This document shows positions 7,665 to 30,167 of a stretch of 30,167 nt of DNA, one piece after another. The notes under the pieces are model-generated. The model saw only the letters and a program-made list of their open reading frames with translations, did no database searches and was not told the DNA's origin. Position 1 is the first letter of the stretch, and each line of letters opens with the position of its first letter. Made by a program: the position numbers and the translations under genes. This DNA is from a virus, in IMG/VR virus record IMGVR_UViG_3300037563_000027, positions 1 through 30,167 of that record. The stretch is one strand, 5' to 3'.

Positions 7665-8273
7665 CTACTCCGATGGGACGATGATCTGATCTCCGCTCGG
7701 AGTAACGTTAAAAATCGCTTGCTGCAAGTTCGCCAGCGCGTAAGAAGGCAACAGCCGCGGGCGAATGGTGAGGACGTTGAAAGTCAGATCGTAAAGCCAT
7801 ACGCGCCCTTGTGGGTCCTGTTCCGAGAATCTTTCCTCGGTGAAGTAGGCGTGACGGCAGCCGGTGGGCTGGAATCCCCCCAACGCAGATTCGATCGCAT
7901 CGATGAGCGCGTAGACTGATCCGGTCCCGCTGAGGTTCCACGCTGTCTTGCGCGCCTCAACGTGGACCTTGAATTGAAGTGTCCGCTCCTGGACCATGCT
8001 CGACGTTGCAAGCGGTTTCGAGAGTCCTGTGTTGCTGTAGGAAATCAGGACGAAAGCAATCGCCGAACTAGCCCACCACGTATCAAGGTCAAAGGCTGGG
8101 TAGATGTAGACCGGAATTGCCAGCGATCCGGAAGCAAAGAACGCCACGAGTTGAGCGGCAATCTGATTCTGAATCGAGTCCACAGTGAGGGACGCGGGGG
8201 GCGTGTTGGTCCTGCCCCCCCATGCCGTAGGGTCCATCTGTACCGGGAGCGCGCCATATGTCGGATCGCTCAT
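7665..8273 (-). CDS. Gp37-like tail/neck protein (Mu gp37 family)
   Basis: 202 residues. The body (SIQNQIAAQLVAFF, then ALIDAIESALGGFQP, then QGRVWLYDLTFNVLTIRP) is the pattern of the phage Gp37 family, found just upstream of the tail sheath in Mu-like phages and thought to act in tail completion or joining. ATG 8273 directly follows the TAA of the upstream gene. The order Gp37, sheath, tube here is the same as in Mu relatives. Confidence 0.82.
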   Translation of the reverse strand: MSDPTYGALPVQMDPTAWGGRTNTPPASLTVDSIQNQIAAQLVAFFASGSLAIPVYIYPAFDLDTWWASSAIAFVLISYSNTGLSKPLATSSMVQERTLQFKVHVEARKTAWNLSGTGSVYALIDAIESALGGFQPTGCRHAYFTEERFSEQDPQGRVWLYDLTFNVLTIRPRLLPSYALANLQQAIFNVTPSGDQIIVPSE

Positions 8274-8717
8274 TTACGCGTTCGCCTTTGCGCTCAGCTT
8301 CTCGGCTCGCGCGGCCGCTTCCTCTGCCAACTTCTGATGCTCAGCCGCGCCCTTGGGCAGGTTGTCGCGGTAGGAGTTCGCAGCGGAACGGTAATGGTCA
8401 TGAGCTTGCCCGTGAGCGGCGGCGGCCTCCAGATGCTTGGCTTTCTGCTCGACAGTGAGTTCGGGCGGTGTCTGCCCATCCTGAACGCCTCCCCACCCGT
8501 AAGCCTTGCGTTGGTGCTCGTCTTTCATCTGAGAGTGGTGCAGGCCATGGGCGATGGCCAGGTGCATCTTCTCTTCGCTGGCACCCACGTCCCGCTTTGC
8601 CATTACCAGCCCGCGCGTCTGGCCGCATAGAACGCAAGGGCAGCCCACGCCGTGATTGTTGTAAGGGTTGGGGGTTGCCGACTTCGCCATTCCCATTCTG
8701 GAGTCTTCGTAGAACAT
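8274..8717 (-). CDS. Hypothetical helical protein with Cys motif, 147 aa
   Basis: Start ATG 8717 is preceded by GAGGTGACAA. Residues about 20-36 carry GVGCPCVLCGQTRG, a compact CxCxxC possible metal site. The second half is strongly helical and Ala/Glu/Lys/His rich (EQKAKHLEAAAAHGQAHDHY, then HQKLAEEAAARAEKLSAKA). I do not recognise a family. It lies in the neck gene cluster and may be a virion or assembly component. Confidence 0.72.
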   Translation of the reverse strand: MFYEDSRMGMAKSATPNPYNNHGVGCPCVLCGQTRGLVMAKRDVGASEEKMHLAIAHGLHHSQMKDEHQRKAYGWGGVQDGQTPPELTVEQKAKHLEAAAAHGQAHDHYRSAANSYRDNLPKGAAEHQKLAEEAAARAEKLSAKANA

Positions 8718-8755
8718 TTGTCACCTCGTTTCAATCCACGCTCAGTATGAGCGAC

Positions 8756-9226
8756 CTACCTCGAATGCGGCAACACGATTTCGATGCCGAAGTTTTGCTT
8801 GCTCTGACGTTGCGCCGATGAGCCGGTAATAGTCAAGGTGCGATGCGTGATCCAGCATTCTTGCACCAGTCCGCCCAGGGTCAAGTCCGCCGTTGGCCCG
8901 ACCGAATCCTGTATGGCGCTCTCAACCGCATCCGCAAGGTTGTTAAGATTTGAGACATTGGTCTCATCTGGAACTTCGCCTTGAAGGGAAACAACTGAAA
9001 TCGTGCAGAGTAGAGATACCCGCGCAGGCGCAAATAGAACGCTACGGTCATAGATTTCACCGGCCTCCATCATGAAGAATGCGGGGTACTGCTCCTCGGC
9101 TAGATCGGTATCAGGAACCGGACGACGGCCGGCATAGTTGAACAGGCTTGTCGGGGTAACGAGCGCCGCTTTCAACTGCGCGAAGAATGCCGAGTATATG
9201 GCCTCGCGTCCTAGTGGGTTTCCCAT
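8756..9226 (-). CDS. Neck or tail terminator-like protein, 156 aa
   Basis: Begins GNPLGREAIYSAFFAQLKAAL and contains YPAFFMMEAGEIYD and LNNLADAVESAIQD, a mixed alpha/beta layout common to tail-terminator and tail-completion proteins, which cap the tail or join it to the head. The ATG overlaps the stop of the gp10-like gene by one base (TAATG). Role is inferred from position in the neck module. Confidence 0.68.
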   Translation of the reverse strand: MGNPLGREAIYSAFFAQLKAALVTPTSLFNYAGRRPVPDTDLAEEQYPAFFMMEAGEIYDRSVLFAPARVSLLCTISVVSLQGEVPDETNVSNLNNLADAVESAIQDSVGPTADLTLGGLVQECWITHRTLTITGSSAQRQSKQNFGIEIVLPHSR

Positions 9227-13484: not shown

Positions 13485-14234
13485 CTAGTTGCCGCCCAGG
13501 TCAATCTTGAAGTTGGGGTCGTTGATCGACTTCGCAAACCCGCTGCCCGGGGTGCACATCAGACCGAAAGCGCGGGCAGTTGCCTGCTCAGAGCTGCGCT
13601 GGTCGTTCGGGTCGGCTTCGGAGAGCGACTTGTTGATCATCCGATTGAAGTCGGCTTTGCCGTCGCTGGCCGGGAACACATCTCCGGTCGAACTGGCAAC
13701 GAACAGCTTCGGACGGCGGCCAGCAGAGGGCTGATTCTCAATCACAGACATCTGGCCCTTCAGGAAAGCGTTGTCGGCAATCAGTGGGGCGGTAGCTTCG
13801 GCCACAGCGGCCTTGACCATCGTCGCAATCGCAGCCGCCGAATAGGGCGAGTCGCCAGCGCCGCGGAAGGTGTTGCCCTCAACTTCTCCTTCAGTCATGC
13901 GCCGCGTGGAAAGCTCTTCGACGTTCTCCGAATCAGGCTTCTCGCCCAAGTCGGTTTCCGCCTTCTCGCCATCCCAGCCAGTCATAGCCTTGCCGAGCGC
14001 AGCGTGAGCCAGTTCGTGATGGTCGGCAATGTCGTTCATGTGTCCTGAAAGCGCCGTGAGGTGCTTCTTGAACTCATCCCCGCCGTCGGCAGCCTTGCCC
14101 ATGCACTTGTGGAGGGCCTCAATCTCATCGACCGCTTTGCCGTGGGAGGCCGAAGCCTTCTTGATGTGGTCATCGGCCTTCTTGATGGCCGCCTTTTTTC
14201 CTGCCGTGAAGCGCTTCTGGAGGTCAGTATCCAT
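13485..14234 (-). CDS. Nested scaffold protein from internal start (candidate)
   Basis: Inside the protease gene, ATG 14234 is preceded by AAAAAGGAG ending ten bases upstream, a stronger site than at many real starts in this window. The product would be 249 residues, starting MDTDLQKRFTAGKKAA, highly helical and charged to the C-terminus, without the protease domain. This is the arrangement of lambda C and Nu3, where the scaffold is made from an in-frame internal start of the protease gene. Expression from this start is an inference. Confidence 0.6.
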   Translation of the reverse strand: MDTDLQKRFTAGKKAAIKKADDHIKKASASHGKAVDEIEALHKCMGKAADGGDEFKKHLTALSGHMNDIADHHELAHAALGKAMTGWDGEKAETDLGEKPDSENVEELSTRRMTEGEVEGNTFRGAGDSPYSAAAIATMVKAAVAEATAPLIADNAFLKGQMSVIENQPSAGRRPKLFVASSTGDVFPASDGKADFNRMINKSLSEADPNDQRSSEQATARAFGLMCTPGSGFAKSINDPNFKIDLGGN

Positions 14235-15122
14235 GATGGTGCTCTCCTTTTTCTTGGTGCTGCCCGGCCAGTCGGTCGGCAGAAGGTGGGTTACGTTCAG
14301 CGCTTTCGCGCGTGCGACGATGTGAGACTTGGCTTTCTCGGGGTCCGATGCGCGGCCATGTGCTTGGATTGCATTCTCAAGATCCTTCACGGTCTGGATG
14401 GGGAAAGAACCGTCCGGGAGCGCAACCCCCGTGCTGCCGAGGTGCTTGCGTTCCTTTTCGCTGAACTCCCGCTTCTCAAGGTCAACGCCGTCCGCAAACT
14501 TGGCGGTCAGGGTGGCCATCTCATCGGCGGTCAGTTCCTCGGACTCAACAGGACTCGGATTCGGGTCCTGTGCGGCTTTGGCAAGGTCCGGGAGTGCAAT
14601 CTTGCCCATCCCGAGAATCGTCCGAAACGTGTCAAGCGCCTTTTCCATCAAAGTCTCGTTACTGGTTTGATTCTCCATCGACCCTCCAAAGGCAAGTCCA
14701 CCGGCAATCTTGCAAACGTCGATGCGGCAATCGGAGTTCGCCGGCCGGTCAACGAGGCTGATCTCTCGCAAGGAAAGCGCCTTGACCACATCGCCAACCT
14801 TCTCCAGTTTGGAACCGCCGATACTGAATCCCTTGTAGACGCCTTCCTTGCACAGCTTCCACGCAGCGGGATCAACGATCTTGGCTCCGATGTACAGCCC
14901 TTTGGTGTCAATGTGGGCCTCTTTGGTCACGCCAACGGCATTGTTGGTGTGCATGGTCCTGATGTTCGCCCACTTCATGTAGTCGGGGAGGGCGGCCTTG
15001 ATGGCGTCCAGCGGAACAATCTCCCCTTGCAGGTCCTTCGATGGCGTTGAGGCATAACCCCAGACCATTCCGCTCTGCGCGTCCACCTTCTCAATCGGGA
15101 GAAATACGCTGAAATCGTCCAT
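13485..15122 (-). CDS. Prohead protease fused to scaffold (XkdF/S78-like)
   Basis: 545 residues. Residues 1-148 are a prohead serine protease: GYASTPSKDLQGEIV, a His in MHTNNAVGV (H58) and Ser in YKGFSIGGSK (S100) are the likely catalytic pair, followed by LREISLVDRPAN. Residues about 225-280 (REFSEKERKHLGSTG, then FPIQTVKDLENAIQ) resemble the small DUF6582-like domain. The rest is helical and charged, as in scaffolds, ending in IDLGGN. Two internal starts have ribosome sites: ATG at residue 149 (GGAGGG) and ATG at residue 297 (AAAAAGGAG). Start ATG 15122 has AGGAG ahead. Protease plus scaffold directly before capsid is the standard maturation cassette. The stretch 14134-14159 is duplicated exactly at 26560-26585. 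Confidence 0.88.
   Translation of the reverse strand: MDDFSVFLPIEKVDAQSGMVWGYASTPSKDLQGEIVPLDAIKAALPDYMKWANIRTMHTNNAVGVTKEAHIDTKGLYIGAKIVDPAAWKLCKEGVYKGFSIGGSKLEKVGDVVKALSLREISLVDRPANSDCRIDVCKIAGGLAFGGSMENQTSNETLMEKALDTFRTILGMGKIALPDLAKAAQDPNPSPVESEELTADEMATLTAKFADGVDLEKREFSEKERKHLGSTGVALPDGSFPIQTVKDLENAIQAHGRASDPEKAKSHIVARAKALNVTHLLPTDWPGSTKKKESTIMDTDLQKRFTAGKKAAIKKADDHIKKASASHGKAVDEIEALHKCMGKAADGGDEFKKHLTALSGHMNDIADHHELAHAALGKAMTGWDGEKAETDLGEKPDSENVEELSTRRMTEGEVEGNTFRGAGDSPYSAAAIATMVKAAVAEATAPLIADNAFLKGQMSVIENQPSAGRRPKLFVASSTGDVFPASDGKADFNRMINKSLSEADPNDQRSSEQATARAFGLMCTPGSGFAKSINDPNFKIDLGGN
14134..14159. repeat. 26-bp duplicated segment, copy 1 (inverted to 26560)
   Basis: Exact reverse complement of 26560-26585. 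Here it lies in the scaffold part of the protease gene and encodes KASASHGKA. Beyond the exact core, similarity continues for about ten more bases on one side with three mismatches. Confidence 0.85.
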
Positions 15123-23789: not shown

Positions 23790-25543
23790 GATGGCCTTGC
23801 ACAGTCAGGGTGCATCCTGCGTATGCCCTCTTCAACCACGGTATCGCCGAGAGGTTTGCCGCAATGATCGCAAAGGTCTTGGGGTGCAAGGGCAGCCATA
23901 GCGCGGTTGTAGGCGGTCATAGCTGGTGCTTTGACGGGTGTGGTCACGGTAGGTGCAGGTCTAAAGCCGGGAGTCTTGGGGTTCGGGTCCTGATCTCCAC
24001 CAGTTTGCACCGCCAGCGCACCCTGGTAATACTCGAGCAGCCCAGCCCCGTTCTTGGACACTTTGGCAAACGCCAGCATGATTGCCTCAGCCCGATCCGG
24101 GCTCTTGACGCCGCGCTTCCGCATCGCTTCCTTGGACTCAATCTCCGTTTGCCCACGGCTATTCGGCTTCCACCGGATGCTGGCAAGTTGGGAAATGGTC
24201 GTCTCGTCGTCGAGTCCTGCCAGGTCTCCGCTCTTGGCGCGCATCCGCAAACCCCAGTACAGTTCAGCTTTCAGGTTTACGAACTGCTCTTTGTCTGCCG
24301 GCGACTCGCCCACGTTGACCGCATTCGACGGGAATCCCAAGTCTTGCAGATGTTTGTGGAGGTAGTAGCCGATGCCGGCCGAGTCAACGTTCAGAGTCCC
24401 GATGCGGCCTTCATACCGCCTGAGTGCGCTCACCAGCTCGCCGCGGGGATCTGGATTGCCCCAGCCGATGATCTCAAGAATCCGGAACCCGCAGCGGGCC
24501 ACCATGACCGTCTCATCCTCGCCAGGACCCGCCACGTCGACCCCGATGTCCACCTTGCCCTCATATGTCCGCGTGTCCCGCTGCGCGCGCTCCAGCCACG
24601 CCAGGGAGAGCAGGGCATCAGGACTCTGAGAGGGGAAATCTCCCATCACGCGCGAATCCCAGCGGAAGTCTCCCGGCCCCCACTCCTCAAACCGTTCCTT
24701 GACCCACCGCCTGGTGGTCAGCCATGGCATCACGTTCTGGCCAAGTTCCTCTTCGCTCAGGTCCATCAGGTCGCGGCCGTTGGGATCACCGAGCGTTACG
24801 GTGATTGGAGCGCCTTCTGAGTCCTGAGCCTCATAGGAAAGCTTGATGCCTTCGAAGTTGGGTGTGTCGAACGCACTGATTGTGAATGGCTGGATGCTCG
24901 CCCGCTTGCTGTGAAACTCGTCGTAGAAAGCGCCAGAGGAGATGGTAGGGTTGCCCAGTTTCAAGATGCGCACGTCGCCGCCGGCACGGATGCCCTCAAT
25001 CGCTTCGATGATCTTCGGATCAACGCCGGGGGCTTCGTCGATGATGATGAGCACGTGGTCAGCGTGGAAGCCCTGGAACTTGACGCCCTCATCCTGCTGC
25101 TGGACTGTCGTCGTGAAGCCCAACGCGTAGCGCATCGGGTACTTGGTCTTATCAAACTCCAGCTTTGTGAGGTTGGCAGACGGGAAGGGATACTTGCTCT
25201 TGACGAGGGCCTTGTGGATTTCACCCCACATCAGGACCTCAACCTGCTTTTTCGTGGGAGCCGTGGTCACCACGATAGCGTTCTCGTACCGGGCCAGCCA
25301 CCAGAGCGTAATCTGCGCCGCGAGGAACGTCTTGCCGGAGGAGTGGCAAGCCTTGACGTTCACCTTCGCCTGGGGCTTGAGCAGCGCCTTGCAAATGTCC
25401 CACTGCACGCTCCACAGGTCAGAGCCGAGCCAGTGTAATACAAACTTGATCGGGTCCGTGAGTGTACTACGAATTTTGGCCTTCTGTACTACAGTGAGCG
25501 GCTTCATTCTCCCTTGATGATAGCCTTGTGTGTCCTGAAACAC
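23777..25543 (-). CDS. terL: Terminase large subunit, 588 aa
   Basis: ATP-driven DNA packaging motor and nuclease. Walker A is CHSSGKT at 66-72, Walker B is VLIIIDE at 164-170. The RNase H-like nuclease has D332/D336 in DIGVDVAG, D387 in LNVDSAG and D483 in SPDRAEA. The C-terminus carries an unusual zinc-ribbon-like tail: C558, C561, H578, C581, after a Pro-rich linker. The start is GTG 25543 because GGAGG lies five bases ahead; ATG 25507 also has a GGGAG but with one-base spacing. The ribosome site is inside a perfect hairpin at 25545-25568. Confidence 0.95.
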   Translation of the reverse strand: MFQDTQGYHQGRMKPLTVVQKAKIRSTLTDPIKFVLHWLGSDLWSVQWDICKALLKPQAKVNVKACHSSGKTFLAAQITLWWLARYENAIVVTTAPTKKQVEVLMWGEIHKALVKSKYPFPSANLTKLEFDKTKYPMRYALGFTTTVQQQDEGVKFQGFHADHVLIIIDEAPGVDPKIIEAIEGIRAGGDVRILKLGNPTISSGAFYDEFHSKRASIQPFTISAFDTPNFEGIKLSYEAQDSEGAPITVTLGDPNGRDLMDLSEEELGQNVMPWLTTRRWVKERFEEWGPGDFRWDSRVMGDFPSQSPDALLSLAWLERAQRDTRTYEGKVDIGVDVAGPGEDETVMVARCGFRILEIIGWGNPDPRGELVSALRRYEGRIGTLNVDSAGIGYYLHKHLQDLGFPSNAVNVGESPADKEQFVNLKAELYWGLRMRAKSGDLAGLDDETTISQLASIRWKPNSRGQTEIESKEAMRKRGVKSPDRAEAIMLAFAKVSKNGAGLLEYYQGALAVQTGGDQDPNPKTPGFRPAPTVTTPVKAPAMTAYNRAMAALAPQDLCDHCGKPLGDTVVEEGIRRMHPDCARPSWAS

Positions 25544-25544
25544 G

Positions 25545-25568
25545 AAAGCCTCCCCATAGGGAGGCTTT
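25545..25568 (-). promoter_or_regulatory. Hairpin sequestering the terL ribosome site
   Basis: Ten-base perfect stem (25559-25568 with 25545-25554) and four-base loop. On the transcript the GGAGG of terL lies in the 3' arm, ending five bases before GTG 25543. It could be a weak terminator (only three T at the stem end) or, more likely, a translational control element. Confidence 0.62.
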
Positions 25569-25586
25569 ATGCTGAATAGGGCTCAA

Positions 25587-25979
25587 TTACGCAAACAGGT
25601 ATGTGATCCGATACTTTGCCATCAATTCCCTTTTCTTGGCTTCCAGCGCATCGCACTCGCCCTTGACAAATGCGATAGCGGACCTCAGCTCCATGCGGGG
25701 TAGTGAGTTGCGTAGTTCAAACTTGGCGCGTTCAGCTCGATATTCGGGGGTTTGGCGAAGTTCCGCTGCGGCCAGAGCCATCTGCTCACGCTCATGTGCC
25801 TTAGCGGAGGATTCAGGATGCTTAATGCCAGTATTCCGGGTTACGCAAACGCTACCATAGTGGAGAATCTCGCCAGTCTCAATGATTTCTACCGCCCAAG
25901 TAGCCTTCAGGTCAGTCTTCCCACAGCAATCGCAAGTGTTGACTGAATCATCTGTTCCGAGGATGTTGAACTTCTTCAT
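25587..25979 (-). CDS. Zinc-knuckle protein between terS and terL, 130 aa
   Basis: ATG 25979 with GGGGAGAG ahead; a longer frame upstream lacks a ribosome site. Starts MKKFNILGTDDSVNTCDCCG: a CxCC-G knuckle, then a beta region with HYGSVCVTRNTG, then a long charged helix (EREQMALAAAELRQTPEYRA). Proteins with this front end are found among phage hypotheticals. Location between the two terminase subunits is unusual and suggests, without proof, a link to packaging. Confidence 0.72.
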   Translation of the reverse strand: MKKFNILGTDDSVNTCDCCGKTDLKATWAVEIIETGEILHYGSVCVTRNTGIKHPESSAKAHEREQMALAAAELRQTPEYRAERAKFELRNSLPRMELRSAIAFVKGECDALEAKKRELMAKYRITYLFA

Positions 25980-26002
25980 GTCTATCTCTCCCCAACAGAT
26001 AC

Positions 26003-26015
26003 AGTTTATCAAACT
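26003..26015. promoter_or_regulatory. AGTTTATCAAACT dyad ahead of 25979 gene
   Basis: Five-base arms AGTTT/AAACT around three bases, 24 bases upstream of ATG 25979. It resembles the GTTTATTAAAC dyad at 26474 and the GGTTTATCAA elements at 18501 and 18616. Confidence 0.4.
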
Positions 26016-26039
26016 CTGCGGGAATGTCAAGCAAAAAGT

Positions 26040-26471
26040 TTAGTCTCCCTTGAGGATACTATCGAGCACGCTCACCTGCACTGGATTGTCTTTGTCGCCG
26101 GCCAGAGTGGTGCGGTCGCCGTATTTCGCCTTGTTCGTGCCCTTGAGCAGGAAGATGAGCAGCGTGTCGCTGTACTCTTGGACATAGCCGACGCGCGCGC
26201 CGCCTTGGTATACCGGCTTCTTCACGCCCTCATAGGCCCGGCGCTTCGCCTCATCCTCAAGCAGCCCTTCGCCTTCCTTCAGAGCCTCATCCCAGTCCTG
26301 CTGAAACAGTTCATCCTCCCGGCGCCAATCATAAGCGGTACGCCGAGGAAGTCTGCTCAATTTGCAGGCTTTAGTGATGTTCCCTGTTGCTTTCAAGGCG
26401 TCAAGGAACCTCGCACGCGTTTTAGGGGCGCGATTTGTACGAGGCTTAGGGCCTTTTACGAGGTTTGCCAT
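26040..26471 (-). CDS. terS: Terminase small subunit, 143 aa
   Basis: DNA-recognition subunit of the packaging motor. ATG 26471 (MANLVKGPKPRTNRAPKT) is preferred to a longer frame; AAAGG lies upstream. Residues 17-50 (ARFLDALKATGNITKACKLS, then RLPRRTAYDWRR) form the helix-turn-helix of the TerS family, followed by the charged helical middle and YQGGARVGYVQEYSDTLLIF, a typical oligomerisation region, and KGTNKAKYGDR. Position two genes ahead of terL agrees. Confidence 0.85.
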   Translation of the reverse strand: MANLVKGPKPRTNRAPKTRARFLDALKATGNITKACKLSRLPRRTAYDWRREDELFQQDWDEALKEGEGLLEDEAKRRAYEGVKKPVYQGGARVGYVQEYSDTLLIFLLKGTNKAKYGDRTTLAGDKDNPVQVSVLDSILKGD

Positions 26472-26473
26472 GA

Positions 26474-26484
26474 GTTTATTAAAC
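26474..26484. promoter_or_regulatory. GTTTATTAAAC palindrome at the terS start
   Basis: A perfect five-base dyad around one base, two bases ahead of the terS ATG. It also contains TTTAAT on the complement, a -10-like box, without a matching -35. May be an operator. Confidence 0.4.
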
Positions 26485-26703
26485 CTTTGCTTTCTTGAAG
26501 TCGCAGTGGCATCTGCATGCCCAACGCGGATCTGGACCCATGAACACTTCCCACACGTCAAGGCTTCGGCCTCCCACGGCAAAGCAATCAATGAGCCAAT
26601 AGCGTTGACACCGGCAAGAGCATGTCTTCCCGTCGCATCGGTGATGGTTCACGTTCAGCGCGCGGATGTCTTCCGCAATCAAAGGCTTTTGTAGTACAGC
26701 CAT
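26479..26703 (-). CDS. Cysteine-rich small protein, 74 aa (candidate)
   Basis: ATG 26703, two bases after the stop of the preceding small frame. Six or more Cys: HHRCDGKTCSCRCQRYW in the middle and WACRCHCDFKKAK at the end. The ribosome site is weak. Its central part is the reverse complement of scaffold-gene DNA (26560-26585), so part of the protein is read from a duplicated antisense segment. A competing frame at 26472-26591 (with CGKC) is in frame with terS; which is used is not clear. Confidence 0.5.
   Translation of the reverse strand: MAVLQKPLIAEDIRALNVNHHRCDGKTCSCRCQRYWLIDCFAVGGRSLDVWEVFMGPDPRWACRCHCDFKKAKV
26560..26585. repeat. 26-bp duplicated segment, copy 2 (inverted to 14134)
   Basis: Exact reverse complement of 14134-14159. 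On the plus strand, the flanking triplets also keep similarity: the plus strand here reads KASASHGKAINE where the scaffold gene encodes KASASHGKAVDE, so this is a captured piece of about 40 bases. Confidence 0.85.
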
Positions 26704-26705
26704 GG

Positions 26706-26870
26706 CTACGCCGCCCGCTTCGCCGACGGTATCAGGACACGCTCCGAACGCAAGGCCGAGCCATGCTCACACACCAAGAGGTGTACGATGAGCTGTACTC
26801 GGGGCTTGGGGGGTGTCTTTTGGGTCCTGTCGGCCATTGGATTTACCACCATGACGGGATTATAAAACAT
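26706..26870 (-). CDS. Small hypothetical protein, 54 aa (candidate)
   Basis: A frame from ATG 26870, overlapping the end of the previous gene by 11 bases, to TAG two bases before the next ATG. It ends LVCEHGSALRSERVLIPSA. A later ATG at 26837 is an alternative start. The ribosome site is weak; an opposite-strand frame (26763-26885) also looks plausible. Included because it fits the tight packing. Confidence 0.4.
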   Translation of the reverse strand: MFYNPVMVVNPMADRTQKTPPKPRVQLIVHLLVCEHGSALRSERVLIPSAKRAA

Positions 26871-27075
26871 CTGAATTCGCTTTAGCTTTTACGCATCTAG
26901 CACACGTAACAGCCTCCCATCGGTCGGTCCACAAAGCCTTCTTGAGATTGATGCGCCGTGGAGTCTTTGCGCACCACGGGGATACTCCACCCGTAGATGA
27001 GATTAGCTTCGCCATATGCACAATCTTGACACTCGGCAGCGCGCCGATAGCGTTGAGAATGTCGGCAGCGTTCAT
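26860..27075 (-). CDS. Small Cys-containing protein, 71 aa
   Basis: ATG 27075 overlaps the Dps stop (ATGA). Starts MNAADILNAIGALPSVKIV; then SPWCAKTPRRINL and VTCARCVKAKAN, three Cys that could form a zinc site with a His. Coupled to dps. Function unknown. Confidence 0.65.
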   Translation of the reverse strand: MNAADILNAIGALPSVKIVHMAKLISSTGGVSPWCAKTPRRINLKKALWTDRWEAVTCARCVKAKANSDVL

Positions 27076-27578
27076 CGCGTGGCCTCGAAGAGAAACCACG
27101 CGCGCCGCTCCGCTTCGTCGATCCAAACCTCAATCATCGCGGTAGAGGCGTAGTCGTCCGCCAGGGCACAGACTGTATGGGCGCTGCGCAATTGGGTGAT
27201 AAGAGTCCTGTTGTCGGCCAGAAGCTCCTTGAGCATGTCTTCTGGTGCCGGGCCGGGCTCATCTGAGTCCTGAATTCGCTGCAACCTGGCAATCTGGCCA
27301 ATTGACCGGATAGTTGTCCCGCCGATCTTCCGCACGCGCTCCGCAATGTCGTCCGTGATGCCGTAGATTTGCGTGGCTTGCTCGTCGAGCATCAGGTGCC
27401 AGTCGCGGAAGTGCGGGCCGGTCATGTGCCAGTGGAAATTCTTTGTTTTCATATATAAAGCAAAGCAGTCGGCCAGCAGCGCGTTCAGCGATTCAGAGAG
27501 TTTATCAACGTTCGCAGGACTGAAACCGTCTTCAACGTCTGAGCCTTGATAATCTCCGGTGGAGAATGGGAATTCCAT
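27072..27578 (-). CDS. dps: Dps-like ferritin (DNA-protecting), 168 aa
   Basis: Dps proteins form 12-subunit shells that oxidise iron with peroxide, store it and often coat DNA. ATG 27578 is chosen for the GAGGTGA site ahead; an in-frame ATG at 27602 is not supported. The four-helix bundle reads LNALLADCFALYMKTKNFHW, then GPHFRDWHLMLDEQATQIYG and ITDDIAERVRKIGG. The inter-subunit ferroxidase set is complete with E. coli Dps spacing: H49, H61, D65, D76, E80. The length is normal for the family. A 20-residue acidic N-terminal tail replaces the Lys-rich DNA-binding tail of E. coli Dps, so direct DNA binding is doubtful. It is in the same leftward operon as terS. Confidence 0.92.
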   Translation of the reverse strand: MEFPFSTGDYQGSDVEDGFSPANVDKLSESLNALLADCFALYMKTKNFHWHMTGPHFRDWHLMLDEQATQIYGITDDIAERVRKIGGTTIRSIGQIARLQRIQDSDEPGPAPEDMLKELLADNRTLITQLRSAHTVCALADDYASTAMIEVWIDEAERRAWFLFEATR

Positions 27579-27612
27579 GGTGGTCACCTCGGGACTCATC
27601 ATAAACCCTCTA

Positions 27613-27834
27613 CTACACGTTTAAGTACACCCTTTGTGGCGTGATCTTTTTGATCGTGGGAAGTGAAATTTCATCGTCTTTCCCCTCAAAAAACGCCGCC
27701 TCTATGCCGTAGAATTCCAGTGCGCCGAGAATCGATAGAACAAGCACGCGCTTATCAATCCTGGATATTTTTTCAACATTGCTGATTCTCTCGACAATCA
27801 AACCTGCTACATGTTCATTGCTTATGGGCGTCAT
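27613..27834 (-). CDS. Small hypothetical protein, 73 aa
   Basis: First gene of the leftward operon that includes dps and terS. ATG 27834 with GAGGTGACC ahead, the same 13-base context as the dps start. Starts MTPISNEHVAGLIVERISN; helical N-terminus, beta C-terminus (SLPTIKKITPQRVYLNV). No family recognised. Confidence 0.68.
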   Translation of the reverse strand: MTPISNEHVAGLIVERISNVEKISRIDKRVLVLSILGALEFYGIEAAFFEGKDDEISLPTIKKITPQRVYLNV

Positions 27835-29826: not shown

Positions 29827-30167
29827 TGGAGACTCTGCGAATCACCAAAGCAGACTTGAATGAGCGTAACGAATACAAGCGCTCACGCGACCTTGAATTT
29901 GAAGGCCACATCGAAGTTGAGGCATCACTCGGGCGGGTAGTTGTGCTCGGCCTCATTCGCGCCGGCGGCCGCTTGGGCATCGAGGCTGGCTCGGGCATCG
30001 AGGCTGGCTCGGGCATCGAGACTAGCTTGGGCATCAAGGCTGGCTGGGGCATCAAGGCTGGCTGGGGCATCAAGGCTGGCTCGGGCATCAAGGCTGGCTG
30101 GGGCATCGAGGCTGGCTCGGGCATCGAGGCTGGCTGGGGCATCGAGGCTGGCTGGGGCATCAAGGCT
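29826..30167 (+). CDS. Hexapeptide-repeat protein (left-handed beta-helix-like), 3' end outside window
   Basis: GTG 29826 overlaps the HTH stop (TAGTG) and the frame is open to the window end (114 codons). The first 48 residues (ETLRITKADLNERNEYKRSR and onward) lead into tandem six-residue units of the form G-I-(E/K)-A-G-(S/W), about 10.7 copies visible. I-x-A-G-S-G type spacing agrees with the hexapeptide signature of left-handed beta-helix proteins. Similar GIKAG/GIEAG runs are known to me from other phage and prophage hypotheticals; function unknown. Missed if only ATG starts are considered. Confidence 0.72.
   Translation, partial: METLRITKADLNERNEYKRSRDLEFEGHIEVEASLGRVVVLGLIRAGGRLGIEAGSGIEAGSGIETSLGIKAGWGIKAGWGIKAGSGIKAGWGIEAGSGIEAGWGIEAGWGIKA
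29975..30167 (+). repeat. 18-bp tandem repeat, about 10.7 copies
   Basis: Unit GGGCATCGAGGCTGGCTC with two main variable positions: GAG or AAG (Glu or Lys) and TCG or TGG (Ser or Trp). One unit (30011) is more diverged. Runs off the right edge. The clean 18-base period keeps the reading frame. Confidence 0.95.

Follow-up and report, generated by a model that had tools for sequence, protein, structure and literature searches.

Template-switch mutations and short templated insertions are an established kind of sequence change (PMC7954356; PMC8794818); as outlined in these sources, a short tract is copied from another template and the donor stays intact, and the switches treated in PMC7954356 use a nearby template at short range. 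Primer-template switching has been proposed for RecA-independent joining in E. coli (PMC5350276); in the model as outlined there, a polymerase extends a freed 3′ end that has annealed at another place, and the genomes of donor and recipient become joined during conjugation with the Rpn nucleases. Mosaicism among phages is ascribed, in the account of PMC2327257, to illegitimate or homeologous recombination, with exchange at little or imperfect homology.

Here we describe a 30-nt tract upstream of the terminase small subunit gene (terS) of a phage, which we regard, with a probability of roughly 80%, as a templated insertion copied from a head maturation protease/scaffold gene. Like the template-switch mutations, it is a short tract (here in reverse orientation) that matches another template whose donor is intact, but the donor in its own genome lies 12.4 kb off, unless another phage molecule served, and the switches of PMC7954356 are of short range. 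A freed 3′ end extended on a second template, as in the E. coli model, would have a counterpart here; conjugational joining of two genomes with Rpn nucleases is the part that belongs to that model. The terS region is mosaic in the manner summarized in PMC2327257; in contrast to module replacement, 30 nt appear to have been added by copying and no module was replaced. A narrow literature search found no paper on this insertion.

The stretch of DNA analysed (the window) is a virus record of 30,167 bases that carries on its minus strand the structural genes terS, terL, portal, head maturation protease/scaffold, tail sheath, and tape measure. Because a tail sheath gene is present, the phage probably has a contractile tail. 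Its close relatives are IMG/VR contigs; all terL matches in annotated phages (401/401 records) are below 60% identity, the DNA of 25500–27700 has no match in annotated phages, and a host search found no terL relative in GTDB genomes. The terS gene (26040–26471, minus strand, stop included; first base of the ATG at 26471) matches phrog_4044 (E 3e-31, with a query lacking the first two residues).

Bases 26560–26585 are the exact reverse complement of 14134–14159, so that 26 nt of the plus strand at the former match the minus strand at the latter, 12.4 kb away. Among exact inverted matches of the window with arms more than 1 kb apart this one is the longest, and no third copy exists in the 30,167-base record at up to three mismatches. 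No comparable match arose in 100 dinucleotide shuffles, and the longest inverted match in 200 order-3 Markov simulations was 20 nt; chance origin is therefore excluded. The sequence search thus recovered the inverted duplication reported in the preliminary description, which had also dismissed chance at this length, as both sets of randomized sequences do, and had noted weaker similarity beyond the 26 bases; with that similarity the arms (14124–14159 and 26560–26595) extend to 36 nt at 92% complementarity.

The copy at 14134–14159 lies within a minus-strand gene (13485–15122) that matches phrog_21715 (unknown function, E 2e-32) and phrog_80 (head maturation protease, E 2e-16); its Pfam matches to Peptidase_S78_2 and Peptidase_S78 fall below their cut-offs. 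This gene had been called the scaffold gene. The head maturation protease PHROG matches bear out part of that assignment, while a scaffold role for the C-terminal part of the product is what we infer. On the minus strand the 26-mer codes for KASASHGKA, and the stretch is kept, with zero to three mismatches, at 29 of the 35 related scaffold-gene loci (0 mismatches at three loci, 1 at 21, 2 at three, and 3 at two); since so many related loci keep it, this copy is the native one. The remaining six relatives (L072–L077) are more distant, with 55–61% protein identity and no match within six mismatches, and three of them match only the N-terminal protease part. An exact scan of viral contigs for the 26-mer, which may pass over records very close to the window, returned three contigs, all with the match in the scaffold gene; GTDB species genomes contain no exact match. 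In one relative (L004) the protease/scaffold gene (L004:6078–8675, minus strand) contains an intein, whose match to Pfam Intein_splicing (E 1e-8) scores 35.5 bits where the cut-off is 35.8. Antisense across this intein runs a 334-aa open reading frame (ORF; L004:6489–7493) with a resolvase-type helix-turn-helix and a match to REase_MTES_1575 below its cut-off; it possibly encodes a homing nuclease on the strand opposite its intein.

The other copy lies in a small cysteine-rich ORF (26479–26703, minus strand; 74 aa) whose stop is 7 nt before the ATG of terS, in agreement with the small Cys-rich frame placed there earlier. The ORF has no match in Pfam, PHROGs, or NCBIfam, and a structure prediction for its product was uninformative (mean pLDDT 44.1). 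Outside the insert it differs from the ORF of relative L014 at 12 of 192 sites (NG86 dN 0.040, dS 0.171); coding constraint is suggested, not proven. The region upstream of terS is a hot spot (26479–26860) in which five cassette types occur between common borders in the 31 readable relatives: 13 have the Cys-rich ORF, and 8, 4, 3, and 3 have other ORFs (the count covers 31 of 36 loci; L032, L034, L039, L040, and L041, cut short or divergent, are unclassified). The terS of the window is closest to those of L006–L009, which have another cassette, so the region recombines as modules. Upstream of the cassette is a ferritin-like protein gene (27072–27602, minus strand; Pfam Ferritin, E 3e-25), whose DNA matches 29 of the loci compared.

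In all 13 relatives with the Cys-rich ORF the flanks align, the site is cleanly empty, and the ORF encodes 64 aa. Only the window has 30 extra nucleotides inside the ORF (26560–26589, minus strand; the placement can slide within 26558–26591), together with one extra C just 5′ of the start codon. Because the site is empty in 13/13 relatives, the copy at 26560 is new, an in-frame insertion of 30 nt or 10 codons. The reading frame is kept (WLI-DCFAVGGRSL-DVW), and one of the 10 added residues is a cysteine. A single TTGA at the empty site is duplicated at the filled one, where it reads TCAA on the plus strand at 26558–26561 and again at 26588–26591; the joints overlap the target by 2 nt each, with GA at the left joint and TT at the right one.

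The 30 inserted bases match the scaffold allele of another phage contig, L003, with 0 mismatches; the alleles of L050 and L066 have 1, the window's own has 2, and others have 2–5. Adding 30 nt of the L003 allele to the empty site thus reproduces the filled site exactly, with TTGA duplicated, which argues for a templated insertion; as such an insertion entails, the donor is still intact elsewhere and the inserted tract matches it. One of the readings offered earlier for the 26-nt copy, a captured fragment, accords with the empty site in 13/13 relatives and with an L003 allele that accounts for all 30 inserted bases. The distinguishing difference is GATTGC in L003 against GACCGC in the window, and because the best allele, L003, differs from the window's own, the donor was probably the scaffold gene of another phage, or the event belongs to a different lineage, from which the cassette later reached this genome by recombination. 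The L003 fragment, 5.4 kb long, lacks the terS region and so cannot link donor with target. The inverted duplication is genuine, has an explanation, and falls into a known class, a modest case of a virus gaining a protein segment: a phage ORF lengthened by ten in-frame codons that would have been copied from the antisense strand of another phage's gene. It is cleanly resolved, with the empty site, the donor allele, and the in-frame product all visible.

Template switching is the mechanism that we favour by a little over even odds. About 30 nt of a scaffold gene would have been copied, in reverse orientation, between CATT and GACGTG of the Cys-rich cassette ORF, giving 10 codons in frame and leaving the donor gene intact. 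While the phage replicated or recombined, a 3′ end in the cassette would have paired with a scaffold template, perhaps aided by the similar stretch GCTCATYGA, been extended on that template, and then returned four bases back. At the left joint, 8 of 9 bases are similar to the L003 allele. Overlaps of 2 nt at the joints say little in favour of one mechanism over another. The same product could have come from a 4-nt staggered break that was filled in and closed by end joining around a short scaffold fragment, a reading to which we give about one chance in four. It would account for the change from a single TTGA in the empty site to two in the filled site, one on either side of 26 further nucleotides, but a template switch with a 4-nt slip yields the identical sequence, and the data do not separate the two routes well. 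An assembly or amplification chimera, in which the insert would be absent from the real phage, is unlikely. The insert does rest on one contig, and its left joint occurs in no other viral contig (a search with a 24-base pattern allowing one free base, which may pass over records very close to the window); a chimera, however, would require two joints, both flanks are in normal order, the reading frame is kept, and two inserted bases are unlike the window's own scaffold allele.

The preliminary description had also proposed that the copies might allow inversion of the 12.4 kb between them, and that the copy near terS lies where packaging sites are often found. The exact 26-bp inverted repeat speaks for an invertible segment, yet crossing over at the copies would part the N-terminal from the C-terminal portion of the scaffold ORF at 13485–15122, and all five related records (four of them 58–61 kb long), searched at up to three mismatches, hold a single copy, with one mismatch and inside the scaffold gene by coordinates. 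In the four long records, as in the window, a single strand codes for both terS and the scaffold gene; the spacing between the two genes is 9.4–11.2 kb in three of them and 11.3 kb in the window, and the fourth has the genes at opposite ends of the record. The suggestion that a packaging, regulatory, or protein-binding site was placed twice under selection draws on the closeness of the insert to terS, whose first base is 89 nt away. Against it, the native copy is coding sequence whose bases vary between alleles, and the insert, which sits in one of five interchangeable cassettes, is absent beside terS in all 31 readable relatives, 18 of which have another cassette at that position. A packaging site is disfavoured because the cassette position differs freely between phages. 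With single copies in relatives, a scaffold gene that inversion would cut, and an interchangeable cassette, neither proposal is supported; we consider a functional site highly improbable and an invertible segment slightly more so.

Three further candidates fit poorly. A short-range template switch, with the donor within tens to hundreds of bases, does not fit copies 12.4 kb apart in the window. As for copying stalled at a hairpin, the donor is predicted to form the stem AGGC/GCCT, yet its folding energy is not unusual (z 0.16 and −0.11). A transposable element with target duplication was set aside on the single copy in 5/5 related records, the lack of an exact match in GTDB genomes, and the small size. 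The related record of L071 encodes proteins that match an exonuclease family (phrog_69, E 9e-6), an SbcC-like family (phrog_77, E 3e-24), and a DnaB helicase (phrog_19, E 8e-52); such proteins may have had a role in the insertion.

A survey of insertions of 12–120 nt with good flanks, covering 75 sequences with 654,839 bases in total, among them pieces of one contig that overlap, gave 107 records and 50 distinct sequences, and only the insertion described here has a non-allelic exact match of at least 26 nt. Matches of 19–25 nt were found for insertions in L009, L024, L030, L031, and L004; these appear to lie in 18-bp tandem arrays or to be the same locus shifted. The templated insertion looks like an isolated accident.

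Elsewhere in the window, at the junction of ORFs 8756–9226 and 8274–8717, is a 35-nt insertion (8723–8757, minus strand) that is bounded by a duplicated CGAGGT and holds GTCGCTCATACTGAGCGTGGATTGAAAC, shaped like a CRISPR repeat. Its sole Rfam hit at E ≤1 is CRISPR-DR9 (18.7 bits, E 0.12; gathering score 45), and it has no match in plasmids. The site is filled in three other contigs (L078, the same as L070; L079; and L080) and cleanly empty in eight (L004, L051, L060, L062, L065, L066, L069, and L071); L047 is not comparable. The element is a candidate solitary repeat unit or RNA anti-CRISPR of the kind described in PMC10651486, as far as that source sets it out, and may be more interesting than the 30-nt insert. 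That capture of about 30 nt from foreign templates recurs in these phages, with this element and the Cys-rich insert as two products of one process, is doubtful, and a common origin of the two is speculation; if true, it would explain the birth of solitary CRISPR repeats, candidate RNA anti-CRISPRs. The process that made the Cys-rich insert, should it deliver CRISPR-repeat-like units as well, would be relevant to the way in which RNA anti-CRISPRs come into phages.

An array of 18-bp tandem repeats (29935–30167) runs off the end of the window, and similar 18-bp arrays vary in length among L009, L024, and L035. A dispersed motif, AACAGGACCCASAAGR, the pattern of which was derived from the window itself, has 11 matches in the window at up to three mismatches against 0.68 expected. 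Ten of the 11 are on the minus (coding) strand, with examples at 7807, 16342, 18070, and 26816, and L071 has three exact copies; the motif is a candidate promoter or other shared site.
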